41,642 nt of DNA from a virus: the IMG/VR virus record IMGVR_UViG_3300027971_002711, positions 1 to 41,642 of that record, one strand, 5' to 3'. The notes under the pieces are model-generated. The model searched no databases. It was not told the origin of the DNA and saw nothing but the letters and a program-made list of their open reading frames with translations. Within the stretch, counting starts at the first letter, position 1, and the number at the start of each line of letters is the position of its first letter. This document shows positions 13,898 to 41,226 of this stretch, piece by piece. The translations under genes were made by a program, and so were the position numbers.

Positions 13898-13898
13898 T

Positions 13899-14406: not shown

Positions 14407-14658
14407 ATGAACGAATCACAATTTATACAATGGCTTAAGGGCTATTTAGATGGAAGAAAAGTATCTGCAGGAGAAAATGCCTTATCTTTTGAGTTAGCTA
14501 CGATCAAGCATAATTTAAGTATGGTATATACAGATCCTAACCCTAAATATAATATTGAGTCTAGAGATACGAGTGGGTATAAGATCTATGGTGATGGTAT
14601 TGATGGTCGAACAACAAACTCATCTAATACAGTAAATAAAACAATACTAAAAGGGTAA
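14407..14658 (+). CDS. Hypothetical protein, 83 aa
   Basis: The N-terminal half is a helix pair with F-I-Q-W-L-K-G-Y-L-D-G and a later KHNLSMVY, a pattern seen in many small phage proteins of unknown role. The C-terminal half is Gly/Asn/Thr/Ser-rich and probably disordered (YGDGIDGRTTNSSNT). The last base of its TAA is the first base of the next ATG (TAATG), so the following tagged phosphoesterase is probably translationally coupled to it. Confidence 0.7.
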   Translation: MNESQFIQWLKGYLDGRKVSAGENALSFELATIKHNLSMVYTDPNPKYNIESRDTSGYKIYGDGIDGRTTNSSNTVNKTILKG

Positions 14659-15212
14659 TGATAAAACTTAAAAGCTTACTTAAAGAAGCTAAACCAGAAA
14701 CCCATGAATATGGATGTGTAATGTTATATTTTAACTTTCCAGAGATAAATACTATTCATCATCTTATCGATCAAAATGATATCTATACTAATGATAATGA
14801 TCCTTCTTATGGATTAGAAGATGAACCTCATATAACATTATTATATGGACTGCATCCTGAAGTAACAGTAGATCAAGTGAAACGCGTATTAGACGGTCAT
14901 GTTTATTCTGCTTGCAATATATTTAATGCGTCAGTATTTAACAACGAAAAGTTTGATGTTTTAAAGTTTGATGTAAGAGGTGAAGGTTTAAATGATACTA
15001 ATACAGCGTTAAAGGCATATCCTTATACAAGTAATTTCCCTGATTATCATCCTCATCTTACAATTGGATATCTTAAAAAAGGAACAGCGCAAAAATATGC
15101 TGACAAGATTAGTAAGATAATGCCTAAAGGATATCAGTTAGTTCCTAAGTATGCAGTATATTCTGAATCAGAAGGAACAAAAAATCAATTACCAATACAT
15201 ACAGATCAATAA
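14658..15212 (+). CDS. 2H phosphoesterase (LigT-like) with N-terminal capsid-targeting-like tag, 184 aa
   Basis: Two H-x-T motifs, H58-I-T60 and H133-L-T135, each followed by an aliphatic/Tyr strand, define the 2H phosphoesterase fold. The family includes RNA 2'-3' cyclic phosphodiesterases, 2'-5' oligoadenylate phosphodiesterases and phage Acb1, which destroys cyclic nucleotide signals of CBASS immunity. The first ten residues MIKLKSLLKE, then Ala, match the tag shared by the proteins at 35.3-39.8 kb and lie outside the catalytic fold. If the tag is a head-targeting sequence, this enzyme would be packaged and delivered at infection. Which substrate it uses cannot be read from sequence. Confidence 0.85.
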   Translation: MIKLKSLLKEAKPETHEYGCVMLYFNFPEINTIHHLIDQNDIYTNDNDPSYGLEDEPHITLLYGLHPEVTVDQVKRVLDGHVYSACNIFNASVFNNEKFDVLKFDVRGEGLNDTNTALKAYPYTSNFPDYHPHLTIGYLKKGTAQKYADKISKIMPKGYQLVPKYAVYSESEGTKNQLPIHTDQ

Positions 15213-16918: not shown

Positions 16919-16919
16919 T

Positions 16920-21239: not shown

Positions 21240-21249
21240 TAAATTAGGA

Positions 21250-21269
21250 TATATTAAAATAATATATTA
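21250..21269 (+). promoter_or_regulatory. Tandem TATATTA boxes in an island gap
   Basis: In the 39-nt gap before ATG 21279, TATATTA occurs at 21250-21256 and 21263-21269, 13 nt apart. TATATTA also precedes genes at 114, 10298, 30216, 31368 and 39891. It could be the -10-like box of internal phage promoters. No GGTT box is present here, so confidence is low. Confidence 0.3.
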
Positions 21270-21278
21270 TATTACAGT

Positions 21279-22052: not shown

Positions 22053-22060
22053 TATAATAA

Positions 22061-22741: not shown

Positions 22742-22749
22742 TTAATTTT

Positions 22750-23523: not shown

Positions 23524-23540
23524 AATAAACAAAATAATAA

Positions 23541-26317: not shown

Positions 26318-26322
26318 TAATC

Positions 26323-27183: not shown

Positions 27184-27184
27184 C

Positions 27185-27853
27185 ATGATAGAATTAAATA
27201 ACGTTACGTTATTAGCATTAACGAGCATAAAGATAGAAGAAACAGTTAAGGCATTAAGACATTGCTCGAGCTTAATTAAGTTTGCTGATGTTAAAATAGT
27301 AACTGATATAGAAGTAATTGATGATATAGTTAAATGGGAGAAATGTGAGAAATTAGATTATATTGGTTACAGTAGATATGCAGTATATGATATGTGGAAA
27401 CATGTAGATACTGAATTCGTGCTTAAAATAGATTATGATGGTTTAATAGTTAATGCTGATCAATGGGATAATGATTTTTTAAACTATGATTATATCGGAG
27501 CTCCATGGCCAATACCTTCAGATAATTTTTCTATGAAGGATATTAATGGGAATATTCAAAGAGTTGGTAATGGTGGATTTACTTTAAGATCAAGAAAGAT
27601 AATGAAATTAGCATCAGAGCTAAATATTCCATGGGAATCATTTTATGGATTTTATAATGATGATGGATTTATGACTGTTAATAATAGACACATATATGAA
27701 GCTAATGGTTGTAAGATAGCCCCGATTGAAGTAGCTGCTAAATTTTCTCATGAAATGCCTATTCCGGAAATACAAGATATAGAACCTTTTGGATTTCATG
27801 GTAAGCACAGTAAATACTATCAATACTTTTTACATTTTAATTACTTTCAATAA
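27185..27853 (+). CDS. DUF5672 putative glycosyltransferase, 222 aa
   Basis: It begins LNNVTLLALTSIKIEETVKA, and has YDMWKHVDTEFVLKIDYDGL (D-x-D-G metal-like site), YDYIGAPWP and VGNGGFTLRSRKIM, which are the DUF5672 blocks; these proteins have a GT-A fold and sit in glycan clusters. PFGFHG closes the family domain. It starts 1 nt after the GT17 stop region and its stop shares a base with the next ATG (TAATG). Donor and acceptor unknown. Confidence 0.85.
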   Translation: MIELNNVTLLALTSIKIEETVKALRHCSSLIKFADVKIVTDIEVIDDIVKWEKCEKLDYIGYSRYAVYDMWKHVDTEFVLKIDYDGLIVNADQWDNDFLNYDYIGAPWPIPSDNFSMKDINGNIQRVGNGGFTLRSRKIMKLASELNIPWESFYGFYNDDGFMTVNNRHIYEANGCKIAPIEVAAKFSHEMPIPEIQDIEPFGFHGKHSKYYQYFLHFNYFQ

Positions 27854-28725
27854 TGCTAACACAGATCGTAATTCATTTAATGCCATACGAGCTAGATCAT
27901 TTTGAATGGCAATCTAAACAATTCAAACTAGGAAGTTCATTCTTATCTAAAGATGATAAGATACTAATAGATGCTACATTAAACTTTAATCTTGTTAATT
28001 GGGATGAGTCTAAACTATCTAAAGAGTTCTTTATTGATAAGTTTAATCAAATAAAAGAATTATGGGATTGGGCTGAAACAAAGTTTGATATTGACGAAAA
28101 TAATATTTGCCGTGGCTGTGATGATAAAAGAAGAAACTCAATCAGATCTTCATTAGCAGATAATATACTTTATTTAGATAGCGATATTATATTTAAACCA
28201 GAGCTATTAAAATATATGATAGATGCCGCAAGTGCAGTTCCTAATGAATATTATATTATATCTCCGCAAGTATATAAGTTATGGGATGATTCATGGGATT
28301 CATTAGTTAATGACAACTTCATAAACCTTAAAGCCTCCCAAGATTATACGACTATAGACCCATATACGATAATATCTCACAGCACAGATACCATAACCAT
28401 CAAACCAATAAATGAGTTTAAATTTGGAGGTGGTTGGTTTAATCTTCTTTCAACAAACTTACTTAAACTAACGGATATACCTGATTCCTTTGGTCCTTAT
28501 GGCATTGATGATTTATATGTAATGATTTGTTGTGGCATTTTAAAACAAAAAGGGTATGATGTTTATCAGTATGTCCTTGAAGGAATGATTGTTGCAGAAA
28601 ATTTAAAATATAGGAAAGATCCTTACAAAAATTTATTATATTTGATTAATAAACAAAGTGAGTTCAGAACACAAGCAGAGAATAATTTACAAGCAGAAAT
28701 TAATAAGTTTATAAGTAGAATATGA
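27853..28725 (+). CDS. Putative GT-A glycosyltransferase, 290 aa
   Basis: A GT-A-like metal site is visible in NILYLDSDIIFKPELLKYMI (D-S-D). The N-terminal third is an unusual acidic region (WDWAETKFDIDENNICRGCD) with two Cys in C-R-G-C. FKFGGGWFNLLST and GPYGIDDLYVM fit acceptor-side loops of GT2-like proteins (G-G-G-x-F; D-D). It shares its ends with both neighbours (TAATG and ATGA). A glycosyltransferase is likely, no family number assigned. Confidence 0.7.
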   Translation: MLTQIVIHLMPYELDHFEWQSKQFKLGSSFLSKDDKILIDATLNFNLVNWDESKLSKEFFIDKFNQIKELWDWAETKFDIDENNICRGCDDKRRNSIRSSLADNILYLDSDIIFKPELLKYMIDAASAVPNEYYIISPQVYKLWDDSWDSLVNDNFINLKASQDYTTIDPYTIISHSTDTITIKPINEFKFGGGWFNLLSTNLLKLTDIPDSFGPYGIDDLYVMICCGILKQKGYDVYQYVLEGMIVAENLKYRKDPYKNLLYLINKQSEFRTQAENNLQAEINKFISRI

Positions 28726-29411
28726 AAATAATATATAGAATATCCGATGCAGGATATAGTAAAATAAAACCAGAATATATCAATAATGAATTATGTTTAA
28801 AAAACTTTGTTAATATATTCGGTAATACCGATCTTCATATCATAGCTGATAATTGTAGCGAAGATACTTTACGTATGGTTTCTAAATACGTTCATCATAG
28901 TGCAATAACAATAGTATCTGTCGGTCATGGTGCTGGAACTTTTAATTTAGCATTGGATATGGCATTGGAATATGATGATGAAACAATAGTTTATTTTGTA
29001 GAGAATGATTATCTTCATAAACAAGGTTCTCCTAGAGTCATAGTTGAAGGATTACAATTGGGATATGGTTATGTTTCTTTATATGATCATCCAGATAAGT
29101 ATATTAATAAACAAAATGGAGGAAATCCTTTTATAGAAGATGGCGGTGAAGTAACAAGAGTAATGTTAACTGATTCTTGTCATTGGAAATTAACTAACTC
29201 AACTACTATGACATTTGCCTCAACCGTAGGAACTTTAAGAGAAGATGAATCTATATTAAGAGAATTTACTAAAGGTTCTTATCCTAGAGACTTTGAAATG
29301 TTTTTGGCATTAAGAGAAAATCAAAAGGGATTATTAACTCCCATTCCAGGTTATTCGACACATGGAGAAACGGCTTGGTTAACACCATTAATAGATTGGA
29401 GCAAAATATGA
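28722..29411 (+). CDS. Putative GT-A-like glycosyltransferase, 229 aa
   Basis: The N-terminus MKIIYRISDAG and HIIADNCSEDTLRMV are like the first two strands of GT-A proteins. IVYFVENDYLHKQGS is in the place of the D-x-D motif (E-N-D). VSLYDHPDKYIN and CHWKLTNSTTMTFA follow, a pattern seen in phage and cyanobacterial glycan genes. The D-x-D is weak, so activity is uncertain. It overlaps the following GT2 gene by 4 nt (ATGA). Confidence 0.65.
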   Translation: MKIIYRISDAGYSKIKPEYINNELCLKNFVNIFGNTDLHIIADNCSEDTLRMVSKYVHHSAITIVSVGHGAGTFNLALDMALEYDDETIVYFVENDYLHKQGSPRVIVEGLQLGYGYVSLYDHPDKYINKQNGGNPFIEDGGEVTRVMLTDSCHWKLTNSTTMTFASTVGTLREDESILREFTKGSYPRDFEMFLALRENQKGLLTPIPGYSTHGETAWLTPLIDWSKI

Positions 29412-30184
29412 TAAGTGTAATAATACCTACGTATAAAGAACCTGAAGCATTAGATTTATGTTTAAGGTCAGCCATCAAAGGACAAAAAAATAAAAATCAA
29501 ATCATAGTCGTAGTTGATGGGTTCTATGATATCAATAAGGAAGTATTGGATAAATATCAAGATGATATCCAAGTCCTTAACTTAGAAGAGAATGTTGGAA
29601 TGATTAGAGCTATGAACTTTGGCCATATGAATGCTAAGTATGATTTAGTGTTTCACGTCCAAGATGATAATGTATTTCCTTTAAATTGGGATATTAATTT
29701 AGAGAATGATTATAAACCTAATAGTGTTTTATCTCCTAATCAAATAGAACCTACTACAAGTATGTTTTCTCAATTTCTTATTAAAGATATGGGAAGAGAT
29801 CCTAAGACATTTGATTTAGTTCGATATCAAACTTACTGCGAAGAATTAAATGATGTCACATATATTAAACATCCTAGTGAAACAGGTTCGACATTTCCAT
29901 TCTTAATTAATAAAATAGACTATCTTAAAGTAGGAGGCTTTGATGAATCATATCCAGGGCCTTGGGTAGTTGATTGGGAATTTTTTCTTAAGTGCAGATT
30001 AAATGGTATGAAGATGTTAAGAACATATAACTGCCATTTTTATCATTTTGTTTCATTAGGAACAAGAACACCAGAAAAAGTTCAAGAGAATCAACAAATA
30101 GAACATGATTGTCATGTATATGGAAATTATAAATGGGGTACAAGTATAAAGCATAATCCTATTAATAATGAAAAATATCTTTAG
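29408..30184 (+). CDS. GT2 glycosyltransferase, 258 aa
   Basis: I use ATG 29408, where MISVIIPTYKEPEALDLC begins a perfect GT2 N-terminus and overlaps the previous stop as ATGA; an in-frame TTG at 29375 would only add residues ahead of the fold. QIIVVVDGFYD, NVGMIRAMNFGH, and FHVQDDNVFP (D-D metal loop) follow. VGGFDESYPGPWVVDWEFFL is the acceptor segment with the E-D/W-E base. Last gene of the glycan island. Ends with TAG. Confidence 0.9.
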   Translation: MISVIIPTYKEPEALDLCLRSAIKGQKNKNQIIVVVDGFYDINKEVLDKYQDDIQVLNLEENVGMIRAMNFGHMNAKYDLVFHVQDDNVFPLNWDINLENDYKPNSVLSPNQIEPTTSMFSQFLIKDMGRDPKTFDLVRYQTYCEELNDVTYIKHPSETGSTFPFLINKIDYLKVGGFDESYPGPWVVDWEFFLKCRLNGMKMLRTYNCHFYHFVSLGTRTPEKVQENQQIEHDCHVYGNYKWGTSIKHNPINNEKYL

Positions 30185-30839: not shown

Positions 30840-31352
30840 ATGACAATAGACGACGATATAGATGCATTGCAATGGAATTCTATAATAGACTCGAATTTCA
30901 AGACTCAAATTATTTATCCAAATAATCCATCCTTTAAAAAAATGTATGATAATTATTTTAAAGTATATGGTGTCGCATTTTTACATTTTCCTAGCATGAC
31001 TGTATTTATTGACGGTCAAGAATTCATTAAGGATGGATATACCACTTCACACATTTATGCAGTGGAGGCCCACGAAATTGCCCATTATATTTTAAAACAT
31101 GATATGAATGCTCCATCAAAAGAACAAGAGATGGCAGCAGATGTAGCAGGAATTCAAATATTACACTTCTTAGATCACCAAGTAGCTAAAAACTTATTAA
31201 TAAGCCGGTTTACCTCTTTGTATACGGACGATTATAGTATGGAAAATAACTTATCTCCAAAAGAGCAAGAGTTACTTAAATCATATTTAAAATTGCGTAA
31301 ATATAGCTGGTGGGAAAGTATTAAAAAATTCCTTTGGAAATTTAAAAAGTAA
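30840..31352 (+). CDS. Zincin metallopeptidase-like protein (ImmA/IrrE-type), 170 aa
   Basis: The active site is H78-E79-I-A-H82 in the helix AVEAHEIAHYILKH. The third ligand is likely Glu97 or Asp101 in EQEMAADVAGIQIL, matching the E-x-x-A-x-x-F-A pattern of ImmA/IrrE (PF06114). ImmA-like proteins cut repressors and other regulators. Total length and the lack of a signal peptide suit a cytoplasmic enzyme. It is followed directly by a second, unrelated-looking zincin gene. The target is unknown. Confidence 0.8.
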   Translation: MTIDDDIDALQWNSIIDSNFKTQIIYPNNPSFKKMYDNYFKVYGVAFLHFPSMTVFIDGQEFIKDGYTTSHIYAVEAHEIAHYILKHDMNAPSKEQEMAADVAGIQILHFLDHQVAKNLLISRFTSLYTDDYSMENNLSPKEQELLKSYLKLRKYSWWESIKKFLWKFKK

Positions 31353-31367: not shown

Positions 31368-31949
31368 ATGGGAAGATCTAAAATTATATATAAGACAAAG
31401 TTACGGAGTTTTATTAATTTTATGTCTCGTGAGATATTTAATGCTGTCAAATTAAATAAGACTAAGACTTTATCGTTTGAATTTAATTATAATGATGAAG
31501 TTATTGAATTAAAAGTAGCTATTAAAAGGGCAGGTATAGATATAGCATTTGATATATGGGGAAGTAGTTCTGATGAAGACATTGATATGAATATTTCTAT
31601 ATCAACTAAATTATTCAGCTCAAAAGATTATAATCAATTCAATGCCGAGGTAAGAGAATTCTTAAGGCACGAAATGGAGCATATTGGACAATATCATGAA
31701 GTGCATGGCAAAGAAGATATATATGGTTATCCAGCAGCAACCACAGAATTAGATTACTTTACAGTTCCTTATGAAATAGATGCTTTCTTACATGGATTGA
31801 ATTATAAAAGAAAATATCTTAAAACTAACATCATAGATGAAATAAATGATTTACTCAGAAATTATTATTATGTAAATGACCCAGTAATATTAGATGCATG
31901 GATTGCAAGATTAAATATAATTTTACCACATACCTTAAACAATGACTGA
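31368..31949 (+). CDS. Second zincin metallopeptidase-like protein, 193 aa
   Basis: The zinc site is H101-E102-M-E-H105 in REFLRHEMEHIGQYHEV, with Glu136 in VPYEIDAFLHGL the probable third ligand. The N-terminal 60 residues form a beta-rich domain (LSFEFNYNDEVIELKVAIKR). This H-E-x-x-H plus Y-E-x-D-A-F layout is seen in phage-encoded predicted metalloproteases. It overlaps the next gene by 8 nt. No signal peptide. Substrate unknown; a role in virion maturation or host protein cleavage is possible but not shown. Confidence 0.78.
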   Translation: MGRSKIIYKTKLRSFINFMSREIFNAVKLNKTKTLSFEFNYNDEVIELKVAIKRAGIDIAFDIWGSSSDEDIDMNISISTKLFSSKDYNQFNAEVREFLRHEMEHIGQYHEVHGKEDIYGYPAATTELDYFTVPYEIDAFLHGLNYKRKYLKTNIIDEINDLLRNYYYVNDPVILDAWIARLNIILPHTLNND

Positions 31950-32211
31950 AAAGAATTATATACATAAAGTACTTAGTGAGGGAGTTGATCTTTTAACATC
32001 ACCCAATCTTAAATTTCCAAGAGACATAACTAACGATGAGCGAATCCTTTTCTTTCAAAGAATGATTAAGTTTTTCGAAGATAAAGAAGATTATTTAAAG
32101 TGTGCGCGTCTTGAAAAGCCATTATACAAATACATTAAACAACAAAAACAAGAATCCAATGGACGAAAACATAGAATTAAAAACTCCATCACAGGCTCTC
32201 AAATTACTTAA
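31942..32211 (+). CDS. Hypothetical protein, 89 aa, with tag-like start
   Basis: A charged helical protein. Its first residues (MTEKNYIHKVLSEGVDLL) contain V-L-S-E-G, close to the end of the long tag on the 34924 protein (EVLSEG). The rest includes RDITNDERILFFQRMIKFFE and a basic tail. The tag resemblance is partial and may be chance. It overlaps the next gene by 53 nt when that gene starts at 32159, unusually long for this genome. Confidence 0.6.
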   Translation: MTEKNYIHKVLSEGVDLLTSPNLKFPRDITNDERILFFQRMIKFFEDKEDYLKCARLEKPLYKYIKQQKQESNGRKHRIKNSITGSQIT

Positions 32212-32554
32212 AGAAGATTTAAAATCTCATACCGGATTCAAAAGATTAATTGGTCAAGGATTTATTAATAAGCCTAGATTCTTTGCATCTGCATATGATA
32301 TTATTAAAGATAATTTTAAGCAAACGACGAAAGTATTTATTTTGGAAGGTCAGGTAAATATATTAATCAATAATGAAGTCCAATTAAATTTAAGCTCAGC
32401 TATCGAAATATTAACTAACAATGATCTTTTAGATATAACTGCAGTAGACCCTGATGGGCAATTATTATATAGGCTATCTGATAAAGGTATTAAAGTCATA
32501 GAACAACTTAAAGCATTAGATGGCAGGGAAAAAGAAGATACCGGAAATATTTAA
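32159..32554 (+). CDS. Hypothetical protein, winged-helix-like, 131 aa
   Basis: Starting at ATG 32159 the protein reads MDENIELKTPSQALKLLKED. Hydrophobic spacing in the C-terminal 60 residues (LNLSSAIEILTNNDLLDITA, GQLLYRLSDKGIKVIEQLKA) is like a winged helix: helix, turn, wing with G-x-L-x-Y-x-L-S-D-K-G. That wing resembles the end of MarR/PadR-like DNA-binding domains, so a small regulator is possible. An in-frame GTG at 32102 would overlap the previous gene much more. It overlaps the next gene by 35 nt. Confidence 0.55.
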   Translation: MDENIELKTPSQALKLLKEDLKSHTGFKRLIGQGFINKPRFFASAYDIIKDNFKQTTKVFILEGQVNILINNEVQLNLSSAIEILTNNDLLDITAVDPDGQLLYRLSDKGIKVIEQLKALDGREKEDTGNI

Positions 32555-32798
32555 CCTAATAATATTTAATAATGATAAATTATCTTTTTTAGAGATTATC
32601 TTAATATTAAAGTCAATAGGGTTAATGGAATTGCAAGCAAATCAATGTGCGATGTTAATTCACAATAAAGGAAAATACGCAGCAGTGTCAGGTGAATATG
32701 ATGAAATGAAGTCAATTCAATCTAACTTGACAGAGTATGGAGTAAAATCGGAAATAGAGCCGAAAATAAATAAACCAATAAATAAAAACAAAACTTAA
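32520..32798 (+). CDS. Hypothetical protein, ClpS-like fold possible, 92 aa
   Basis: The sequence begins MAGKKKIPEIFNLIIFNNDK, then LSFLEIILILKSIGLMELQA, AMLIHNKGKYAAVSGEYDEM, and a strand pair in LTEYGVKSEIEP. The N-D-(K) near residue 18, a helix, M-x-x-x-H-x-x-G and a late V-K-S-E strand echo the ClpS/adaptor fold (N-D-D-x-T, H-x-x-G), which would make it a protease adaptor. I treat this as a lead, as identity is low. It overlaps the previous gene by 35 nt. Confidence 0.5.
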   Translation: MAGKKKIPEIFNLIIFNNDKLSFLEIILILKSIGLMELQANQCAMLIHNKGKYAAVSGEYDEMKSIQSNLTEYGVKSEIEPKINKPINKNKT

Positions 32799-33078: not shown

Positions 33079-33540
33079 ATGAATAATAATACTCTTAAAA
33101 AACTTATCAAAGAAGAAATAAGATCTATACTTAAAGAAGGAGAACATGATCAACAAAATTATATGTTCTTTCAAAATCTTCATACTATTAAAAGAATGGT
33201 AGAGAAGATGCTTGCTCTTAATCCACAAGAAGTAGACACATTATTATCTGATGGCCATGGATGGGCTGTAGATCATATTTCAACTTCTGCAGATGATGTA
33301 GGTGAAGTAGGAACTTGGATGTGTAATGAGTTAGGACGTGATATGAATAATACTAATATGATGTCAGAATCTAATTCAAGAAATGATATTGCTAATTATA
33401 TTAGTATATTATCAAATAGACTTATTGTAGCTAAACAAGAAGGCGATCAAAAGATGATTGACACATTAACTAAATGGATTGCAGATTTAAAGAATGAACT
33501 TAACAGTCTTAAAAAACTAACTAATGAAAAAATACGATAA
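33079..33540 (+). CDS. Tagged protein A (long tag), 153 aa
   Basis: The N-terminus MNNNTLKKLIKEEIRSILKE, then Gly, is the long form of the shared tag: an amphipathic basic helix ending [I/L]-L-K-E-G. The body has a helix (KRMVEKMLALNPQEVDTLLS), HGWAVDHISTSADDVGEVGT, and a C-terminal coiled-coil-like section. Similar bodies occur in marine phages without known function. If the tag is cut after Glu20, a 133-residue protein would remain. First gene after the terminator; overlaps the next by 17 nt. Confidence 0.75.
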   Translation: MNNNTLKKLIKEEIRSILKEGEHDQQNYMFFQNLHTIKRMVEKMLALNPQEVDTLLSDGHGWAVDHISTSADDVGEVGTWMCNELGRDMNNTNMMSESNSRNDIANYISILSNRLIVAKQEGDQKMIDTLTKWIADLKNELNSLKKLTNEKIR

Positions 33541-33976
33541 ACTAAGACAATTACTTAAAGAGCAAATCAGAAAAGTAATTCTTAAAGAAGGATTTCAATC
33601 AGCAGACAATATTTATATGTCAATGTTTGAAGATAATATTGTTCTTACTCAATCATTTAATGGTTCAGAATCAGATATGGGCCAAAAGATAGAAATATCT
33701 ATGAAAGACTTTCCTAAGATATTAGATGGTTTATTTAATTTGGTTCCTGTAAATAGAATCCCTGTTAATTATCGTCAAAGTATGATAGCAAAATTATCTG
33801 ATAAAGCAATTGATCAAGAAACTGATTTAGCTGCTGAAAAGCCAGATAAAGAATTTAAGGGTAAAAAAGGTAAAGATGAAGAAGGTGGCGGAGGAAAAGA
33901 ATCTGCCGCAGAAGAAACGCCAGCAGGTGGTGAAGAAGAAGAAGAAGCACCGGCAGGTGAAAATCCATTCGCATAA
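33524..33976 (+). CDS. Tagged protein B (long tag, acidic tail), 150 aa
   Basis: The tag is KYDKLRQLLKEQIRKVILKE followed by Gly23. A compact middle domain (IYMSMFEDNIVLTQSF, SMKDFPKILDGLFNLVPV) leads into a disordered tail that moves from Lys-rich (KEFKGKKGKDEE) to Gly-rich to acidic (GGEEEEEAPAGENPFA). Such tails are typical of virion internal or scaffold-like proteins that touch DNA or shell. The overlap with the gene upstream is 17 nt, and the next ATG shares the last base of its stop (TAATG). Confidence 0.75.
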   Translation: MKKYDKLRQLLKEQIRKVILKEGFQSADNIYMSMFEDNIVLTQSFNGSESDMGQKIEISMKDFPKILDGLFNLVPVNRIPVNYRQSMIAKLSDKAIDQETDLAAEKPDKEFKGKKGKDEEGGGGKESAAEETPAGGEEEEEAPAGENPFA

Positions 33977-34329
33977 TGAAGACTGATAAACTTAGATTAC
34001 TTCTTAAAGAAGAAATACGCAAGATATTAAAAGAAGATGATATTGTTCCAGTAGGACCTGAAGGAGAAAAGATATCAGATCCAAAGGTTGCAGCAAAACT
34101 TTCTAATACTCTTAAACAATCTTTACTAAAAGTACCATCATCAATGAGATCTAGACTTACTGATTTAATTGCTGATGATGGAATAAGAAGTGCGTTAAAG
34201 AGTAAAGATCAAAGGGCGAGTATATTAACTGCTATTGCAACTGCATTTGGCGTTAATGATCAAGAGTTTGGTCAAGTCGTGTCTCAAATCAAAAAGAATT
34301 TGGCGATGACTAATACAGAAAAATTATAA
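33976..34329 (+). CDS. Tagged protein C (long tag), 117 aa
   Basis: The tag reads KTDKLRLLLKEEIRKILKED, with the [L/I]-x-E end at Leu-Lys-Glu19. After a short loop with V-G-P-E-G-E the rest is helical: VAAKLSNTLKQSLLKVPSSM, RLTDLIADDGIRSALKSKDQ, AFGVNDQEFGQVVSQIKKNL. There is no cysteine and no catalytic motif. It appears to be a small helical bundle of unknown role, within the tagged cassette and coupled to the previous gene by TAATG. Confidence 0.75.
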   Translation: MKTDKLRLLLKEEIRKILKEDDIVPVGPEGEKISDPKVAAKLSNTLKQSLLKVPSSMRSRLTDLIADDGIRSALKSKDQRASILTAIATAFGVNDQEFGQVVSQIKKNLAMTNTEKL

Positions 34330-34334
34330 TACAT

Positions 34335-34904
34335 ATGGAACCATTAACTCATAATAACAATACCTTTAATGATTTAACTTATCAGCTATATAAACATATG
34401 TCTGATAAATATGAAGTTCTTAAGAATCAATATCCAAAATTCATTATCAACAACAAACAACAATCATCTCATATTTTAGGGCCAACAGCTAACTATCAAC
34501 CAGACACTAAAACTATTACGGTATTTAGTTTTGGAAGACATCCTAAAGATATGTTAAGATCATTTGCTCATGAAGTTATTCATCACGTTCAAAATTGTGA
34601 AGGAAGATTAACTAATACTTCTACACATGAAGGATATGCTTTAGACGACTCAAATATGAGCGAATTGGAGCGAGAAGCGTACGAGCAAGGCAATATGGCA
34701 TTTCGTGAGTTTGAGGATCTATACAAAAGAAAAAACCCTATTGCTGAAGGCGGTGCTATGATGAATGCTGCTGAAATGAAACGTCACAAAAATAAATTGG
34801 GCAAGCTTAATAAAGTATTAGCGAAACAGGGAGATCAAATGATTCCTTATCCTAAAGAATTACCCAATACCGTTATGAATGCTAAATTAATTACGAAAAA
34901 ATAA
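34335..34904 (+). CDS. Third zincin metallopeptidase-like protein, 189 aa
   Basis: The site is H79-E80-V-I-H83 in MLRSFAHEVIHHVQNCEGRL, with Glu114 or Glu117 in SELEREAYEQGNMAFREF as the likely third ligand. The E-R-E-A-Y-E-Q-G-N/x-M-x-F-R pattern is seen in predicted phage metalloproteases. It has no N-terminal tag but lies inside the tagged block. An internal P-I-A-E-G-G near residue 137 fits [L/I]-x-E-G. A virion-associated protease is one reading. Differs in sequence from the zincins at 30840 and 31368. Confidence 0.78.
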   Translation: MEPLTHNNNTFNDLTYQLYKHMSDKYEVLKNQYPKFIINNKQQSSHILGPTANYQPDTKTITVFSFGRHPKDMLRSFAHEVIHHVQNCEGRLTNTSTHEGYALDDSNMSELEREAYEQGNMAFREFEDLYKRKNPIAEGGAMMNAAEMKRHKNKLGKLNKVLAKQGDQMIPYPKELPNTVMNAKLITKK

Positions 34905-34923
34905 CAATATAAAATATAACAAT

Positions 34924-35175
34924 ATGAAAATATCACAATTAAAATCTCTTATAAAAGAGAACATTAAAGAAGTTTTATCTGAGGGAGCACTTTTAAATTC
35001 TATTACTCCAGGTTTGGAAGGCGAAGTTAAAATAGCTGTTCAAAGTTTAGAAGCTTACTTAAATAAAACCAACGCAATCTTAGACTATAATCACGCTCGT
35101 AACCTAGCAGAGCTTATTATTGATATAATTGATGCTGCAAAGGATGAAGCAAGAAACGAATCAAGCGATTACTAA
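34924..35175 (+). CDS. Tagged protein D (long tag), 83 aa
   Basis: The tag MKISQLKSLIKENIKEVLSE followed by Gly is a close copy of the long form, and it accounts for a quarter of the gene. The remainder is a single helical pair (LEGEVKIAVQSLEAYLNKTN, HARNLAELIIDIIDAAKDEA). A very small internal protein with little beyond the tag and a helical hairpin. Preceded by the A/T-rich spacer AATATAAAATATAACAAT. Confidence 0.75.
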   Translation: MKISQLKSLIKENIKEVLSEGALLNSITPGLEGEVKIAVQSLEAYLNKTNAILDYNHARNLAELIIDIIDAAKDEARNESSDY

Positions 35176-35186
35176 AAAATAAGAGT

Positions 35187-35237
35187 ATGGGTGATCACGA
35201 GGAATATCCAGATTTTTTTGAGCATAACGAATTATAA
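35187..35237 (+). CDS. Possible micro-ORF, 16 aa
   Basis: ATG 35187 to TAA 35237 encodes MGDHEEYPDFFEHNEL, an acidic aromatic peptide. It fills most of the space between the 35175 stop and the 35241 gene. There is no Shine-Dalgarno site to test, as in the rest of the genome. It may be a translated leader or chance. Listed because the gap is otherwise unexplained. Confidence 0.3.
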   Translation: MGDHEEYPDFFEHNEL

Positions 35238-35240
35238 CAA

Positions 35241-35339
35241 ATGACCAAAAAAGAAAAGAAAGCTAAGAACAGAAAGAAGATAGCTAAAGCAGCTATCAAG
35301 CTTCAACAACAAAAAGGCATCTATAAAAAGAAAACATAA
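35241..35339 (+). CDS. Small basic peptide gene, 32 aa
   Basis: ATG 35241 opens a 32-residue peptide with MTKKEKKAKNRKKIAKAAIK and then LQQQKGIYKKKT, ending TAA 35337-35339, one base before the next gene's ATG. It is about half Lys/Arg and forms one helix. Such peptides can bind DNA or RNA and may be packaged with the genome. The precise fit between neighbouring genes supports translation. Confidence 0.55.
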   Translation: MTKKEKKAKNRKKIAKAAIKLQQQKGIYKKKT

Positions 35340-35340
35340 T

Positions 35341-36453
35341 ATGATTAAGCTCAAAGACTTATTAGAGAATGCTAATGTTAATATTGATTCGAAATTTAAT
35401 TCTGATCTAATAAACTATATCAATAAACAATATCATGAAAACTATACAACATTAACTCCTAGGGAAATTAATGATGGTTATTGTGATTTATGGGCTAGTT
35501 TATTTATAAAGAAGTTTGGCGGAGAACATCAATGGTCTTATGACTTTCCTAATGAACCTAATGCGCATTCATGGGTCAAGCTTAATAATAAATTTTATGA
35601 TGCTGAAGCAACAAACGGAGTTTCTAGTTTAACTGAATTACCAGAATTCCAAAGATTTATATCAAAATATGGAAATGAATGGTTAAATGATTCATTTTAT
35701 AAAAATATCCAATCAAGCACAACGGAAATAACAGAAGATCTTCGTGATTGGTTTGGTAAAGGTAGTAAAGGCGGAGTAGGTGGAGGAGGATGGGATAGAT
35801 ATAATTCATCAGGAGATAGAATAGGTAAGTGCGGAGATGCTAAAGAAGGAGATGCTTATTCAGCTTGCCTTTCAAAAGAAAAAGCAGAGAAATTAGGTAA
35901 AGAAGGAAGAGCAGCATTCGTAAAAAGAAAAAGGGCTGCCCAATCTAAAGGCGGAGACGCTAAAAAGGGTGGAGAAACAACTAAAGGTCAAAAGGCTATT
36001 AAAGTAAAAATGGGGGTTAAAGAAGAAATAACACCGGAGCAGTCTGAAAGAATTGGTATGCCATTTAAAGGGAAGAATAATCAAAAGTTAAAAGAAACAT
36101 CAGATCCGGAATCAGGCAAAGCAGCGCCATATGGGTCTGGCTATGCCCCTATCAAAGAATTAGTAACAGCTACAGAAGTTATTTGTGATAATTGTAAATG
36201 GAAATGGAAAATAGCCGAAGGCGGTAAAGATCCTTATCTATGTCATAAATGTCATCATGATAATACACCCGACCTCGCGAAATACAAACAACTCTCAGCA
36301 TTATTAGAAAAGAATATACCTACAGATAAATCTAAATGGTCTTATTACAAGTCTCAAGCCAAAAAGAAATTTGATGTATATCCTTCAGCGTATGCAAACG
36401 GATGGGCTGCAAAAATGTATAAAAAAGCTGGTGGAGGCTGGCGTAAATCTTAA
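35341..36453 (+). CDS. Tagged multidomain protein: Cys-protease-like, Gly/Lys linker, zinc ribbon, DUF5872; 370 aa
   Basis: A short tag MIKLKDLLEN opens the chain. The first domain (to about 130) has Cys48 (DGYCDLWASLF), His76 (NAHSWVKL) and Asp87 (FYDAEATNG), a transglutaminase/papain-like C-H-D order. Next comes a DWFGKGSKGGVGGGGW motif and a Lys/Gly segment (CGDAKEGDAYSACLSKEKAE) known in marine phage proteins. A CxxC-CxxC zinc ribbon (ICDNCKWKW, LCHKCHH; about 281-304) follows. The end, FDVYPSAYANGWAAKMYKKA, is a DUF5872 domain. Likely a virion-carried protein. Activity of the triad is a guess from order only. Confidence 0.75.
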   Translation: MIKLKDLLENANVNIDSKFNSDLINYINKQYHENYTTLTPREINDGYCDLWASLFIKKFGGEHQWSYDFPNEPNAHSWVKLNNKFYDAEATNGVSSLTELPEFQRFISKYGNEWLNDSFYKNIQSSTTEITEDLRDWFGKGSKGGVGGGGWDRYNSSGDRIGKCGDAKEGDAYSACLSKEKAEKLGKEGRAAFVKRKRAAQSKGGDAKKGGETTKGQKAIKVKMGVKEEITPEQSERIGMPFKGKNNQKLKETSDPESGKAAPYGSGYAPIKELVTATEVICDNCKWKWKIAEGGKDPYLCHKCHHDNTPDLAKYKQLSALLEKNIPTDKSKWSYYKSQAKKKFDVYPSAYANGWAAKMYKKAGGGWRKS

Positions 36454-36458
36454 TAATT

Positions 36459-36794
36459 ATGATAAAACTTAAATCTATAATCTCAGAGGCTAAGAAACCA
36501 GAAGAGAAACAGGACACGTTCGAATTATTCGCAGAAACTAGAATGGGCGGTGCAGAAAAGATATCTAACAATGCTCATGAGAAAGGAGGCTTCGCTCTTC
36601 TTACTTGGCATCATTTCAAAGTAAAGCTTCCTTATTATAAAAAAGCCACTGAAGGTAAATTTGATATGGAGTCTGCTAAGAAAGAGTTTGAAGAAACATA
36701 CAAGAAAATTTCATTATCTATGACTCCGAATGAATTTCAACGAGAAGTAGGTAGATTAGAAGTATTAGGCGAATTAATTATTAAACACAAATGA
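36459..36794 (+). CDS. Tagged protein E (short tag), 111 aa
   Basis: The tag is MIKLKSIISE then Ala. The body is helical with GGAEKISNNAHEKGGFALLT, WHHFKVKLPYYKKATEGKF and a Glu/Lys-rich end. A very similar layout (G-x-A-x-L-x-x-x-H-x-x-x-K-x-x-P-Y) is found in small T4-like marine phage proteins, so the family looks conserved but is uncharacterised. It overlaps the following gene by 4 nt. Confidence 0.75.
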   Translation: MIKLKSIISEAKKPEEKQDTFELFAETRMGGAEKISNNAHEKGGFALLTWHHFKVKLPYYKKATEGKFDMESAKKEFEETYKKISLSMTPNEFQREVGRLEVLGELIIKHK

Positions 36795-37213
36795 TCAAAC
36801 TAACAGATATATTAAATGAAGGGCAGATAGCTAAATGTCCTCCAGCAACTCAAAACATAGAGTTGAATCTTAAAAACAGACAAAAGGCTATTGACGAATA
36901 TGGATATGGTCCTATGAATCCAAATGAAAAGAATGAAAAGTTCTGGCAAAAGAAAGTGGATATGTGGCAATTGGATTCTGCAGCTGAGGCTAAAAAATCT
37001 CTTTGCGGAAATTGTGCTGCATTCGATATGACAACTAAAACATTAGATTGTATTGCTAAAGGTATTGGAAATGATGAAGGTTCGGAAGATCCATATCAAG
37101 TTATTAATGCTGGGCAATTGGGATATTGCAGATTCTTAAAGTTTAAATGTGCAGCTAAACGTACTTGCGATGCATGGGTAGTTGGTGGACCTCTTAAAGA
37201 TAAAGTTAAATAA
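36791..37213 (+). CDS. Tagged Cys-rich protein F (short tag), 140 aa
   Basis: The short tag reads MIKLTDILNE then Gly. Eight Cys follow, beginning at Cys16 (IAKCPP) and grouped in CGNCAAFDM, LDCIAKG, GYCRFLKFKC and RTCDAW, a pattern for one or two metal or Fe-S sites, as in rubredoxin-like or HiPIP-like small phage proteins. Between them lies NPNEKNEKFWQKKVDMWQLD. It is coupled both sides (4-nt overlap before, TAATG after). Role unknown; could be a redox or structural module in the virion. Confidence 0.75.
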   Translation: MIKLTDILNEGQIAKCPPATQNIELNLKNRQKAIDEYGYGPMNPNEKNEKFWQKKVDMWQLDSAAEAKKSLCGNCAAFDMTTKTLDCIAKGIGNDEGSEDPYQVINAGQLGYCRFLKFKCAAKRTCDAWVVGGPLKDKVK

Positions 37214-37851
37214 TGAAACTAGAACTTACATCTAATAAACTTAGTCAAACTAAATACTGGATTAATGAAATAATCACAGAATATCAACCAATGGCTAATG
37301 ATATTTCTTTATTTGATGTTAATGGTTATGATTTATGTGGGCTAGAGCAAGAATATGCTAAAGTAAATATGTCTGCAACTGAGCATCGGTATAAACAAGC
37401 CATTAAAAAAGATTGGATGATAGATTCAGATAAAAGTATATCAGGCTGTCATATTAATCATGCTCTTTTATTTGAACGTAAAGGATATTCCGGCCCAGCA
37501 TTAGAACAATTATCTTTATGGGCTAAAGAATTACCTCTTATCAATAAATTAATCTTTATTAATCCAAAGTGGGGTATAGACCTTTCAATTGATTATGTAG
37601 ATGATAATGGTAATGTATTTGAAGTATTTCATTATGAATGGGATTCATTTGAATATTCTAAAGTATTGAAGATGAAAGACAAAATTGAATATTTAGCATT
37701 AAATACAAATTGGGATGATGCTGCGATAGAATTAATTAAAAGAAAAGATGAATGGTCTACATTACCATTCTTTGAACAAAGTAATTGGAAATGTAAGTTC
37801 TATGGTATCGAACCAGAAAACTTTAAAGAAATAATTTGGAGCTCTATATAA
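37213..37851 (+). CDS. Hypothetical protein, 212 aa, within the tagged cassette
   Basis: The start MKLELTSNKLSQTKYWINEI has no clear tag, although I-I-T-E (about residue 22) fits [L/I]-x-E. The rest is an alpha/beta protein with SGCHINHALLFERKGYSGPA and LFDVNGYDLCGLEQEYAKVN. It is Trp-rich near the end (NWDDAAIELIKRKDEW). It lies between tagged genes and is coupled by TAATG, so the same virion setting is plausible. No family recognised. Confidence 0.7.
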   Translation: MKLELTSNKLSQTKYWINEIITEYQPMANDISLFDVNGYDLCGLEQEYAKVNMSATEHRYKQAIKKDWMIDSDKSISGCHINHALLFERKGYSGPALEQLSLWAKELPLINKLIFINPKWGIDLSIDYVDDNGNVFEVFHYEWDSFEYSKVLKMKDKIEYLALNTNWDDAAIELIKRKDEWSTLPFFEQSNWKCKFYGIEPENFKEIIWSSI

Positions 37852-37852
37852 T

Positions 37853-38638
37853 ATGATAAAACTTAGATCATTATTAAAAGAATCATTAGACAAAAATATA
37901 GTAAATACTATACTAGATGAATTAAAGCCTACTATATCAGATATGGTAAATGAAATAGAAAATTGGGTTAGAGAAAAATATAAAATGCCTGTTAATGATC
38001 ATGACAGAGAAATGTTTAGATATAATCTTATTGTAGATATGGTTAAGGCGGTTGAATCATACACTAAACCAACTGATAAACTTATTTCAGTAAGAGCAAG
38101 AAGATCAGGTAAAGGAAGTATTCAAATAAATGCTGAGATTGAAAGAGATGGAGTTTCATATCCATTTGAAACGGAAGCTATATTAGCTGGAGGTCATAAT
38201 ATTCAGCAATTACATTATCGTTATATTACCAAAACACGATTAGGGAAAACGGGTAATTCAGAGATTACTAACGTTTATAAAGAAAAGATTAAACGATTAT
38301 CCAAAATAGATAAAATCAATCAAGAAATTGAAAGCTTTCAAAAGAGAATAGATAATACAAATAAAGAAATTGAAATGAACTCTAAAATGAGCGATGAAGA
38401 AATTCTTAAATCTGTAACATCAAAACCAGATTATTATGTATGGCCTTCTTGGGAAGAAATGATTCAAAGAGATGCTGCAAGAAACTATGATAATGATGAA
38501 GCACTTTATAATAAAGAAAAAACCGACCGTTATAATTCTATAGTCCCTAATTGGAAAGATAGAAATATTAGACAAAAGCAAGATTATGCGAAAAGCTTAC
38601 AGATTGCAATAAATAAACTTCAAAAGAAACTTGCATGA
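37853..38638 (+). CDS. Tagged protein G (short tag, coiled coil), 261 aa
   Basis: The tag is MIKLRSLLKE then Ser. A globular alpha/beta domain (about 30-145) contains VRARRSGKGSIQINAEIERD and FETEAILAGGHNIQQLHYRY. A coiled coil follows (KIDKINQEIESFQKRIDNTN), then a charged Trp-rich tail (YYVWPSWEEMIQRDAARNYD). The shape suggests a structural or DNA-contacting protein. It overlaps the next gene by 4 nt (ATGA). Confidence 0.75.
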   Translation: MIKLRSLLKESLDKNIVNTILDELKPTISDMVNEIENWVREKYKMPVNDHDREMFRYNLIVDMVKAVESYTKPTDKLISVRARRSGKGSIQINAEIERDGVSYPFETEAILAGGHNIQQLHYRYITKTRLGKTGNSEITNVYKEKIKRLSKIDKINQEIESFQKRIDNTNKEIEMNSKMSDEEILKSVTSKPDYYVWPSWEEMIQRDAARNYDNDEALYNKEKTDRYNSIVPNWKDRNIRQKQDYAKSLQIAINKLQKKLA

Positions 38639-39339
38639 TAAAACTTAAACCTTTACTAGAAAAAATACAAGAGTTTAATCCTTCTAATATAAATGCTGAA
38701 TTTAATAAGATAGCTGATATATGTGAAGGATTAGGTAACCATGAATTTCTTTCAAGAGAATTTGGCGTCGAGGCTGGGTTTGGATTATATCTTGTATATA
38801 CAGAAGAATGGACTAAAGGAAAGATTGGATTAAATTTAAGTTACGAACCAGAAATAAAAGCATACTTTACTCAACTAACCGATAAATTCGGAATGGATCA
38901 TATAGTATATACTTCTTATAAAAGTTCAAGAGGCGGCTTCTTTGGCCGTGAATATTTAATGATACCAATATCTCCATTCAAAACAATTTGGAGTCCTAAA
39001 GTAAATGATATTTATTCTAATATAAGTCAAGCAATAAAAAAGAATGAGCCCGTTCAGCCTATGATAGATTCATATGTGGATGATTGGCCAACGCAATCTA
39101 CAGGAGAAGTATTGGTAGATTGCGATCAATATTATTTATTGAATTTTAAGCGCTTTGCAGATTTATATGGTTGGATGACGTCATCAAGAATACAAGCAAA
39201 TAAACAATTTCATGCACCAAGACCAGGAAAGAAAGCTGATCTACTTGCAGTTACCACTTATAGTGAATTAGCGCCATTTTTAAATTGGTATGCTGAAGAA
39301 TCAAAATTTGATACCCCATTAAGCGATAGACCTAGATAA
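38635..39339 (+). CDS. Tagged protein H (short tag), 234 aa
   Basis: The tag is MIKLKPLLEK; it keeps [L/I]-x-E as Leu-Leu-Glu9. The body is a single alpha/beta domain (EAGFGLYLVYTEEWTKGKIG, FGMDHIVYTSYKSSRGGFFG, YLMIPISPFK) with a Tyr/Trp-rich C-terminal half (DCDQYYLLNFKRFADLYGWM). No named family. The ATG overlaps the previous stop by 4 nt. Confidence 0.72.
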   Translation: MIKLKPLLEKIQEFNPSNINAEFNKIADICEGLGNHEFLSREFGVEAGFGLYLVYTEEWTKGKIGLNLSYEPEIKAYFTQLTDKFGMDHIVYTSYKSSRGGFFGREYLMIPISPFKTIWSPKVNDIYSNISQAIKKNEPVQPMIDSYVDDWPTQSTGEVLVDCDQYYLLNFKRFADLYGWMTSSRIQANKQFHAPRPGKKADLLAVTTYSELAPFLNWYAEESKFDTPLSDRPR

Positions 39340-39340
39340 T

Positions 39341-39838
39341 ATGATAAAACTTAAAACATTATTAAAAGAAGTAGGAGAAGGCGTTACGCCTTATCAATGG
39401 AGCGGGCCTCAAGAACAATCTGGAAATATTAATTATCATTTTACTACAGAAGATAATGATTCATATCGTGTCGTATTTACTGGCATTGAAGGGAATGATT
39501 GGAGATTGGATTTTTATGTTAAAGAATCTAAACCCAATAGTGAATATGATTCGGGTACAGTAACTAATAAAGGCAGACAATTTAAAATCATATCTACAAT
39601 AATGGATATCATGAAAGATTTTATAGAAGAATATCCTGCAGATGCTATTGTATTTTCAGGCGCTGACAAAGAAGGATCTAAAACAAATCAAAGGGAAGAG
39701 TTATATAAGAAATATATCATAAAGAATATTCATTTGTTGCCAGGTTGGGATACAAATATAGATATGCCAGGGCAAATAGGACATCTTTCTATATTTAGGG
39801 AAGAACCTTTAGATGATATGCAATTATCAATAAAATAA
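39341..39838 (+). CDS. Tagged protein I (short tag), 165 aa
   Basis: The tag is MIKLKTLLKE then Val. The domain (YRVVFTGIEGNDWRLDFYVK, GRQFKIISTIMDIMKDFIEE, PADAIVFSGADKEGSKTNQR, LYKKYIIKN) is a pattern shared with small proteins of many T4-like marine phages, with a strand pair, helix and a core F-S-A-D-K/E segment. Function unknown. It is the last short-tag gene; a promoter-like motif follows its stop. Confidence 0.78.
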   Translation: MIKLKTLLKEVGEGVTPYQWSGPQEQSGNINYHFTTEDNDSYRVVFTGIEGNDWRLDFYVKESKPNSEYDSGTVTNKGRQFKIISTIMDIMKDFIEEYPADAIVFSGADKEGSKTNQREELYKKYIIKNIHLLPGWDTNIDMPGQIGHLSIFREEPLDDMQLSIK

Positions 39839-39844
39839 AAAATA

Positions 39845-39878
39845 ACGGTTGTTTATATAAAAGTATATAATTATATTA
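39845..39878 (+). promoter_or_regulatory. Candidate phage promoter (second ACGGTTGTTTA)
   Basis: ACGGTTGTTTA (39845-39855) is an exact copy of the 11-mer at 76-86. TATATAA follows at 39864 and TATATTA at 39872-39878, with ATG at 39891. The 52-nt gap here is one of the larger ones in the window. The exact repetition of an 11-mer at two gene starts 39.8 kb apart argues for a shared transcription signal. Confidence 0.5.
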
Positions 39879-39890
39879 AAGAAAAAGAAG

Positions 39891-40238
39891 ATGAATAAAA
39901 ACATATTAAAGACTCTTATAAAAGAGTGCTACAAAGAAGTATTAGCAGAAGGGTTTGATGACCAAGAAGCTGAATTACCTGCTACAAGAAGTGTAAATAT
40001 GGGTGATGCTCCAAGTAAAATTGATTTAGGTGTTAATACTAAAGCATCTAGTAAGATAAGTAAATTACAATCTGCTATCGATCAATTAAGTACCACTCTT
40101 AAAACTAACTTAGATCTTTATAAAGCTGGTCAAATGTCAATTGCAGATTATAAAGTTGCTGTAGGAGATATTCCAGTAAAGCTTAAAGGTTTAGTTGCAG
40201 CATTAGAGATGGAAATAGGAAAGACAGCTAATATATAA
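39891..40238 (+). CDS. Tagged protein J (long tag), 115 aa
   Basis: The tag MNKNILKTLIKECYKEVLAE then Gly is a diverged long form. The rest is an acidic linker (FDDQEAELPATRSVNMGDAP) and a helical coiled-coil-like end (KISKLQSAIDQLSTTLKTNL). It is preceded by its own candidate promoter. No catalytic motif. It fits the internal-protein group by tag and size. Confidence 0.75.
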   Translation: MNKNILKTLIKECYKEVLAEGFDDQEAELPATRSVNMGDAPSKIDLGVNTKASSKISKLQSAIDQLSTTLKTNLDLYKAGQMSIADYKVAVGDIPVKLKGLVAALEMEIGKTANI

Positions 40239-40271: not shown

Positions 40272-40505
40272 ATGACATTCAGAGAAACATTCAAGAAAAA
40301 CATACTAATGATAATATTGATGGCGGCTACATTTTTTCTGCCACTTGGCTTCGATGTATTGTTCGCTCTAATCATGCGTTGGACAGAGTCTTTTTGGGTT
40401 ACGGATGTAATTTTTTATTGTATATCTCTATCATTCTTTGGGCTTTATTTTTACTTAACTAAAAAATGGGGCTTTAATAAAAATGGACTACCAAAAAATC
40501 TATAA
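40272..40505 (+). CDS. Small two-helix membrane protein, 77 aa
   Basis: The chain reads MTFRETFKKN, then hydrophobic helices at about 11-34 (ILMIILMAATFFLPLGFDVL) and 44-63 (DVIFYCISLSFFGLYFYLTK), ending in a basic tail. Similar two-helix proteins with L-P-L-G-F-D occur in other large phages. I prefer this frame over one starting at 40244, whose product lacks organised hydrophobic segments until its end. It overlaps the endonuclease gene by 23 nt. Confidence 0.7.
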   Translation: MTFRETFKKNILMIILMAATFFLPLGFDVLFALIMRWTESFWVTDVIFYCISLSFFGLYFYLTKKWGFNKNGLPKNL

Positions 40506-41226
40506 TAGTATAATCGAAAATGCTCGATTAGAAAATAGAAATAAAGGCACTTCTAAATATTATGAGTCACATCATATTATACCAAGATGCATGGGCGGTA
40601 ATAATAATAAATCAAACCTTATCTTACTAACTGCTAAAGAACATTTTATAGCTCATAGATTATTAACGTTAATATATCCGGATAATAATAAATTAGTACG
40701 AGCTTTATGGGCAATGAGTACGATGAAAAATAATATTCAAATTCGACATATTATATCATCTAGAACATATGAAAATCTTAAAATCGAATATGCAAGAATT
40801 AATTCTGAGAGAATAATTACTGATGAATTTCGAAATAAGATATCTAAAGCACGCACTGGTAAAACTCATACCGAAGAGACTAAAAAGAAAATATCAGAAA
40901 TAACAAAAGAGAGATTGTCAAATCCAGATATTAGAGCTAAGTTTTTAATTCATTGTGAATCTAAACGAGGTATTCCTTTATCACAGCAAACGAAAGATAA
41001 GTTATCTAAATCTTTAAAAGGTCGAATAGTATCTATAGAAACTAAAGATCGTATGAAGATATCAAATAAAATCAATGCTATAAATCAAAAAAAGCCTCTA
41101 AAAGATATAAGGTCAAATATAGTATATCTAAAAAAGCCAGATCTAATTAAAGACTTGAATATCTCTAATAGAGAATATCTTAAATTACTAAAAATGAATA
41201 TTTTAATACGAATAGATAATTATTAA
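40483..41226 (+). CDS. HNH homing endonuclease with NUMOD3 repeats, 247 aa
   Basis: The catalytic part is YYESHHIIPRCMGGNNNKSN (about 26-45), giving H30-H31, then Asn45 and LTAKEHFIAH (His54, His58), an HNH/HNHc site. At least two NUMOD3 DNA-binding motifs follow: KISKARTGKTHTEETKKKIS and LSKSLKGRIVSIETKDRMKI. Such genes are mobile: they cut a target site in phages that lack them and spread by repair. It is free-standing. It overlaps the membrane-protein gene by 23 nt, which suggests it has disturbed its flank. Confidence 0.92.
   Translation: MDYQKIYNSIIENARLENRNKGTSKYYESHHIIPRCMGGNNNKSNLILLTAKEHFIAHRLLTLIYPDNNKLVRALWAMSTMKNNIQIRHIISSRTYENLKIEYARINSERIITDEFRNKISKARTGKTHTEETKKKISEITKERLSNPDIRAKFLIHCESKRGIPLSQQTKDKLSKSLKGRIVSIETKDRMKISNKINAINQKKPLKDIRSNIVYLKKPDLIKDLNISNREYLKLLKMNILIRIDNY

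Follow-up and report, generated by a model that had tools for sequence, protein, structure and literature searches.

The tagged cassette

The viral contig IMGVR_UViG_3300027971_002711 (41,642 bases, analysed at its full length and called the window here) contains, between 33.1 and 40.2 kb, a cassette of plus-strand genes whose products have unrelated bodies but share a short N-terminal segment, the tag, that closes with the site [LIV]xE. An earlier note on this DNA had described eleven such proteins, with N-termini ending in [L/I]-x-E and mostly followed by G, A or S, and had read the shared start as a head-targeting tag cut in the manner of T4 gp21. All eleven starts are genuine starts of open reading frames (ORFs), and each N-terminus holds an [LIV]xE site (11/11). 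Furthermore, [LIV][LIV]xE starting at residues 5-23 is present in 10 of the 14 genes between 33.0 and 40.3 kb, compared to a rate of 4.8% per equal span inside protein bodies (P=5e-11), a mean of 2.1 and a maximum of 7 in shuffled sequences, and 3 of the 50 window genes outside this region. The set of eleven was thus borne out, while the finer wording of the site held in part: a clean [LI]xE closes the tag in 9 of the 11 and G, A or S follows in 7 (D, N, K and V in the other 4), with weaker tags, in which the Glu stands at position 9, in 35341 and 38635 (genes are named by their start).

The tags of the cassette fall into a short type A, MIKLKxLLxE, and a long type B that resembles the start of 34924; below, a slash follows the Glu of a site. 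Type B opens the proteins encoded at 33079..33540 (153 residues, MNNNTLKKLIKEEIRSILKE/G), 33524..33976 (150 residues with an acidic C-terminus, MKKYDKLRQLLKEQIRKVILKE/G), 33976..34329 (117 residues, MKTDKLRLLLKEEIRKILKE/D), 34924..35175 (83 residues, MKISQLKSLIKENIKEVLSE/G) and 39891..40238 (115 residues, MNKNILKTLIKECYKEVLAE/G). Short tags are found on the multidomain protein of 370 residues at 35341..36453 (MIKLKDLLE/N), which also contains internal ITE/D and IAE/G sites and a weak C-terminal match to DUF5872, on the compact helical protein of 111 residues at 36459..36794 (MIKLKSIISE/A) and on the Cys-rich protein at 36791..37213 (MIKLTDILNE/G), relatives of which are annotated as high-potential iron-sulfur protein. 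They continue with 37853..38638 (261 residues, MIKLRSLLKE/S; the homologue in L197, contig G014, bears MIKLKNLLNE/G), 38635..39339 (234 residues, MIKLKPLLE/K) and the DUF6934 protein at 39341..39838 (165 residues, MIKLKTLLKE/V). Two genes inside the tagged stretch are not plain members, namely the metallopeptidase-like 34335..34904, which has an HEVIHH motif and an internal NPIAE/G site but no tag, and the doubtful 37213..37851 (212 residues, MKLELTSNKLSQTKYWINE/IITE/Y, that is WINE/IITE). Beyond the cassette, a twelfth and clear tag, MIKLKSLLKE/A, is carried by a 2H phosphoesterase of 184 residues at 14658..15212, and a protein of 89 residues at 31942..32211 (MTEKNYIHKVLSE/G) is a possible further candidate.

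Recurrence of the tag on unrelated bodies

A degenerate DNA pattern for MIKLKxLLxE matches at least 120 stretches in IMG/VR, a lower bound, compared to 8 in the whole collection for the same codons scrambled. The tag lies at the first ATG in 250 of 265 tag-A genes, and BLAST sorts the 232 unique proteins into 100 groups whose bodies show no similarity to one another. When representatives of these groups are aligned 100 ways, only the tag aligns, with M1, I2, K3, L4 and E10 conserved, although the positions fixed in the search pattern are conserved there by construction. Independently of the pattern, E10 is invariant in two families collected by their bodies, across 17 homologues of 36459 and as an alignment column in 29 homologues of the 2H phosphoesterase 14658, and L4 is nearly invariant in the former. 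The tag A peptide is encoded by 131 distinct 30-nucleotide sequences with a mean identity of 0.75, which argues that the peptide is what is kept.

The earlier note had called for a motif search of N-termini in related phages, and such a comparison supports a shared start that recurs on about 100 unrelated bodies. A de novo comparison of 358 unrelated bodies yielded 88 strong matches among their first 30 residues and none in either of two internal segments. This comparison recovered, untold, tags A/B, C (FDLKKFLVENKL) and D (RMQKLAGIITE), together with secretion signals, which serve as a positive control. Furthermore, the residue after the tag Glu is G, A or S in 41% of cases compared to 18% (P=4e-10), a preference taken from loci outside the tag-pattern set because the search pattern itself restricts that codon.

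Tag types and tag swapping

The viral group uses at least four interchangeable tag types, 9-25 residues long and ending in [LIV]xE: A, MIKLKxLLxE; B, MKKSxLxxLIKEEIRxVLxE; C, FDLKKFLxENKL...LxE; and D, RMQKLAGIITE. Their exchange on one body is seen most directly in the 2H phosphoesterase family of 14658, for which 55 relatives were found in IMG/VR. The 51 in which the domain start could be fixed all have [LIVMF]xE at most 14 residues before it, compared to a body rate of 19%, and they bear five unrelated kinds of tag: A in 14, B in 7, C in 3, D in 6 and a T4-like tag MIKSFTQFLxxxFE (for example MIKSFTQFLTGIFE) in 17, with 4 unassigned. Likewise, relatives of the Cys-rich body of 36791 bear either tag A or tag C, and are untagged in two small phages that are not of the T4 type. 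In predicted models of the 14658 and 36459 proteins the tag residues are of low confidence and the body is confident. The 14658 model has a mean predicted local distance difference test score (pLDDT) of 90 and is confident except for the disordered residues 1-13, so the predicted cut would fall in a flexible stretch ahead of a compact domain.

Head genes of the relatives

The window record is a fragment that contains no head genes, and no near-identical DNA was found for it in named phages. Its nearest named relative, judged by a glycosyltransferase and the 36459 protein, is Flavobacterium phage immuto_2-6A (160 kb; immuto below), which encodes a T4-type portal gp20, an S77 prohead protease gp70, a scaffold protein and Gp23. 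The immuto genome has a tagged cluster at about 102-119 kb, directly ahead of the genes for terminase, portal, protease, scaffold and capsid. Of the 38 loci examined (genes outside annotated records were called by a simple longest-ORF method), about one third contain a recognisable terminase gene, nearly always with tagged genes upstream of it. Among 16 larger contigs picked by the tag alone, 13 contain S77, Gp23 or Gp20; head genes were found on 0 of 8 contigs picked by a scrambled pattern compared to 10 of 27 for the tag, a control too small to rely on. The gp21-like protease for which the earlier note had proposed a search therefore exists as an S77 protease in immuto and most relatives, whereas the window fragment contains neither it nor Gp23. 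Short extra ORFs matching pieces of Gp23 also occur away from the capsid gene in one contig (L276, G046; 133357-133506 and 190314-190466), and similar ones are present in G045 and G047.

The same kind of site recurs in the head proteins themselves, as the note had asked of capsid and scaffold. All 23 head modules examined encode a capsid protein with [LIVMF]xE just past a conserved ENQ, in the region where T4 gp23 is processed, and many of these capsid proteins begin with LLE/S or similar. The link to the scaffold is provided by tag D. A motif derived from tag D and scaffold ends, [RK][WMFLI][QKR]x[LIM]A[GN][ILMV], was counted in 2,285 genes (519,098 residues). Of its occurrences, 27 fall within the first 26 residues (0.27 expected by chance), 24 form the extreme C-terminus and 2 lie elsewhere; one of these last two is a second tag D within a tag-D protein. 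Of the C-terminal cases, 21 are scaffold proteins adjoining the capsid gene, so that tag D equals the scaffold C-terminus, and 3 are not scaffold. Non-scaffold proteins ending in a scaffold-like RxxxLAGI are L302:2079 (181 residues), which also has an N-terminal tag A, L158:4320 (243 residues), which likewise opens with a tag-like N-terminus, and L152:12245 (199 residues).

In T4 itself, mutations in the tag of internal protein IPIII showed that residues 4 and 7 matter for targeting and residues 8 and 10 for processing (PMC9026906). Tag A follows this register, its residues 4, 7 and 8 being hydrophobic and its residue 10 Glu, while types B, C and D differ in length. Tag A also resembles the starts of scaffold and capsid proteins; together with the equality of tag D and the scaffold C-terminus, this suggests that the tags probably work by copying scaffold contacts.

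Cargo bodies

Pfam names found in the 100 tagged bodies include ART-PolyVal and MPTase-PolyVal, lysozymes, Nudix, HD, zeta toxin, GNAT, NT5C, Tpt1, metallopeptidases and 2H phosphoesterase. The injected protein Alt of T4 is an ADP-ribosyltransferase. Domains of the kinds listed have been predicted for injected polyvalent proteins (PMC5512222). Two tag-A lysozymes (L130:10330-11025 and L144:732-1577), if packaged in the head, might aid DNA entry like the internal transglycosylases of other phages. Among the loci examined, the body of 36459 is the commonest cargo; neither a fold search nor Pfam returned anything for it.

For 14658, a sequence search of the PDB gave chance matches only, and the relationship came from a fold search, which matched, in order, human USB1, a Burkholderia-phage phosphodiesterase, a poxvirus cyclic GMP-AMP (cGAMP) phosphodiesterase and phage Acb1. 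The body has a 2H fold with two HxT motifs, and its Pfam Acb1 score is 24.3 bits, under the cut-off of 27. An activity against the cyclic-oligonucleotide-based antiphage signalling system (CBASS) is a guess from this modelled fold.

Most tagged proteins are single-domain, the exceptions being immuto gp88 (907 residues), which joins domains encoded as separate genes elsewhere, 35341 of the window and L093:5101. In immuto and several relatives the metallopeptidase domain of the 34335 type belongs to longer proteins; nearly every relative has a site of the type [LIVM]xE/[GS] after it, and in L152 the gene ends at this site. From sequence, this suggests that some cargo may be made as a chain and then cut at domain borders. 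Three HExxH-type metallopeptidase-like proteins are encoded near one another in the window (30840-31352, 31368-31949 and 34335-34904), and two of them correspond to domains of immuto gp88.

Neighbouring genes

Directly before the tagged cassette lies a gene for a ClpS-like adaptor of the ATP-dependent Clp protease (32520-32798; PF02617, E=2.8e-5), and the cassette ends at an HNH endonuclease with NUMOD3 motifs (40483-41226), likely a mobile intruder. About 15 sugar genes (glycosyltransferases, aminotransferase, epimerase, methyltransferase) occupy 10785-30184, as in immuto, and probably modify a surface glycan or the virion.

Interpretation and alternatives

The evidence above is best explained by taking the N-terminal segments as propeptides that target the capsid and are cut by the prohead protease, T4-like in their working but more diverse, a reading to which we give a probability of roughly 0.87. 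The head-targeting function with gp21-type cutting proposed in the earlier note is thus supported by the S77 and Gp23 genes of the relatives, the sites in all 23 capsid proteins, the equality of tag D with the scaffold C-terminus, the swapping of tags and the T4 IPIII register. We infer that the tag docks unrelated cargo proteins into the prohead core during head assembly, probably through the contacts of the scaffold; the S77 protease of the phage would then cut after the Glu of [LIV]xE and free the cargo within the head, around which the DNA would be packaged. By analogy with T4, the cargo would probably enter the host along with the DNA.

Virion proteomes lend this reading mixed support. 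In Synechococcus phage S-CREM2, with 52 virion proteins (PMC10665884), a T4-register pattern matches 6 of 219 proteins, 5 of which are in the virion (P=0.003 overall, 2e-4 among non-structural proteins): an S-adenosylmethionine (SAM) hydrolase, a kinase, a protein like nicotinamide mononucleotide (NMN) adenylyltransferase and two unknowns. Overall, a looser tag pattern falls short of significance (P=0.06). Members of the NMN-adenylyltransferase family bear tags both in cyanophages and in relatives of the window, and cargo of this type has been reported in several cyanophage virions (PMC10665884, PMC9602691, PMC9146016). Separately, S-CREM2 gp12 (L226:7704-10313), a nuclease annotated as Cas9 and reported in virions, has a longer start, MTSRWSNWSTGSDKKPLRFASFMAE/A, with the same kind of site.

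Several points weigh against the propeptide reading. The proteomes come solely from T4-like cyanophages, and the S-CREM2 pattern was fixed after its N-termini had been seen, the register itself having come from T4. Applied unchanged to phage S-SZBM1 as a pre-specified pattern, it found none of its 4 matching proteins among the 30 detected (PMC9146016); the NMN adenylyltransferase of S-SZBM1 was detected in the virion, its tag being one residue shorter and out of register. In addition, homologues are related, so that counts are not independent events, and several patterns were drawn up after the sequences had been inspected. Three of the 16 contigs picked by the tag (G015 of 207 kb, G025 and G027) lack a match to a T4-type head family, and may be fragments. 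One of them, G015 (L029), has a clear tag A gene without any S77, Gp23 or Gp20 match; either its head module is divergent or the rule does not hold for it. Finally, a tag B protein of immuto (81525-81944, L002:31525-31944) lies beside baseplate genes and is a possible exception to head targeting.

The alternative that survives best, itself improbable, is that the tagged proteins are components of the prohead core or scaffold like T4 gp67 and gp68, consumed in head assembly and never delivered. The tags do copy the ends of scaffold and capsid proteins, and small tagged proteins are encoded between the protease and scaffold genes, as with gp69 and gp72 of immuto and two tag-D proteins of L304. 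However, the bodies amount to about 100 unrelated kinds, many of them enzymes (ADP-ribosyltransferase, Nudix, zeta-toxin-like kinase, nucleotidase, lysozyme), they are folded, with a single site right after the tag, and the gene content is patchy, whereas a scaffold would be conserved. We consider it less probable again that the shared start is an uncut amphipathic helix for association with membrane, tail or baseplate, or for oligomerisation. Its basic amphipathic character, the occurrence of some tagged lysozymes and the tag-B gene near the baseplate genes of immuto would suit such a helix, which nevertheless leaves unexplained the invariant Glu followed by small residues, the same site in the capsid protein and the equality of tag D with the scaffold end. 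A sharing of first codons for reasons of DNA or expression (translation initiation, or cassette exchange through shared 5' ends), the peptide itself having no function, would fit tagged genes that are clustered and shuffled like the internal-protein cassettes of T-even phages, but is barely tenable with one peptide in 131 codings of 75% mean nucleotide identity and with unrelated tag sequences that have only the [LIVMF]xE junction in common.

A broader picture can be drawn, towards which we lean only slightly: a large uncultured T4-like group would use the head as a general delivery vehicle, with interchangeable tags, at least one of them a scaffold copy, and dozens of exchangeable enzymes, some as chains diced by the protease, that would act in the host from the onset of infection. 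These enzymes would include a phosphoesterase of the cyclic-nucleotide type, ADP-ribosyltransferases and metallopeptidases.

Comparison with known systems

The vague idea of protein injection here becomes a rule by which cargo genes can be recognised from sequence in metagenomes. For hundreds of uncharacterised phage proteins it predicts both where they are, inside the head, and when they act, in the first seconds of infection, the stage at which anti-defence functions would be expected. Because tag D equals the scaffold C-terminus, the origin and docking of a targeting tag can be explained in a way that is open to experiment, and swappable tags would be useful for loading foreign proteins into phage heads. 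A literature search, with subscription papers outside its scope, found no comparable tags beyond T-even and giant phages, nor the term capsid targeting sequence together with metagenomics, nor MIKLKDLL in print.

Among single cargo proteins, 14658 shares the 2H phosphoesterase fold and two HxT motifs with the anti-CBASS nuclease Acb1 (T4 57B, FBB1), but it fits USB1 and the Burkholderia-phage phosphodiesterase better, falls under the Pfam Acb1 cut-off and, unlike T4 57B, bears a tag. Polyvalent proteins (PMC5512222) contain similar cargo domains, and some of their multidomain chains are predicted to be packaged and injected; the proteins described here are instead mostly short and single-domain with a shared address tag, and the predicted cuts are made by the prohead protease and not by an internal peptidase. 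The ejection proteins of the giant phages SPN3US and phiKZ are likewise numerous head proteins whose N-terminal propeptides a gp21-related protease removes by cutting after Glu (PMC5694885), although those propeptides are mostly longer than 100 residues and cut at A/S-x-E, compared to the 9-25 residues ending in [LIV]xE found here.

The closest parallel is formed by IPI-III and Alt of T4, whose unrelated bodies follow an N-terminal tag of ten residues, hydrophobic at 4, 7 and 8 and with E10, that gp21 cuts in T4 (PMC9026906); Ip1-3 of T4 are injected restriction inhibitors (PMC12373910). T-even phages have about 10 known internal proteins with essentially one tag type, whereas the present group, known from sequence alone, has about 100 body families and at least 4 new tag types. 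Unlike the T4 internal proteins, it exchanges tags on one body and has one tag equal to the scaffold C-terminus. New here are thus the number of cargo families, the several tag types, tag swapping and the scaffold-derived tag D.

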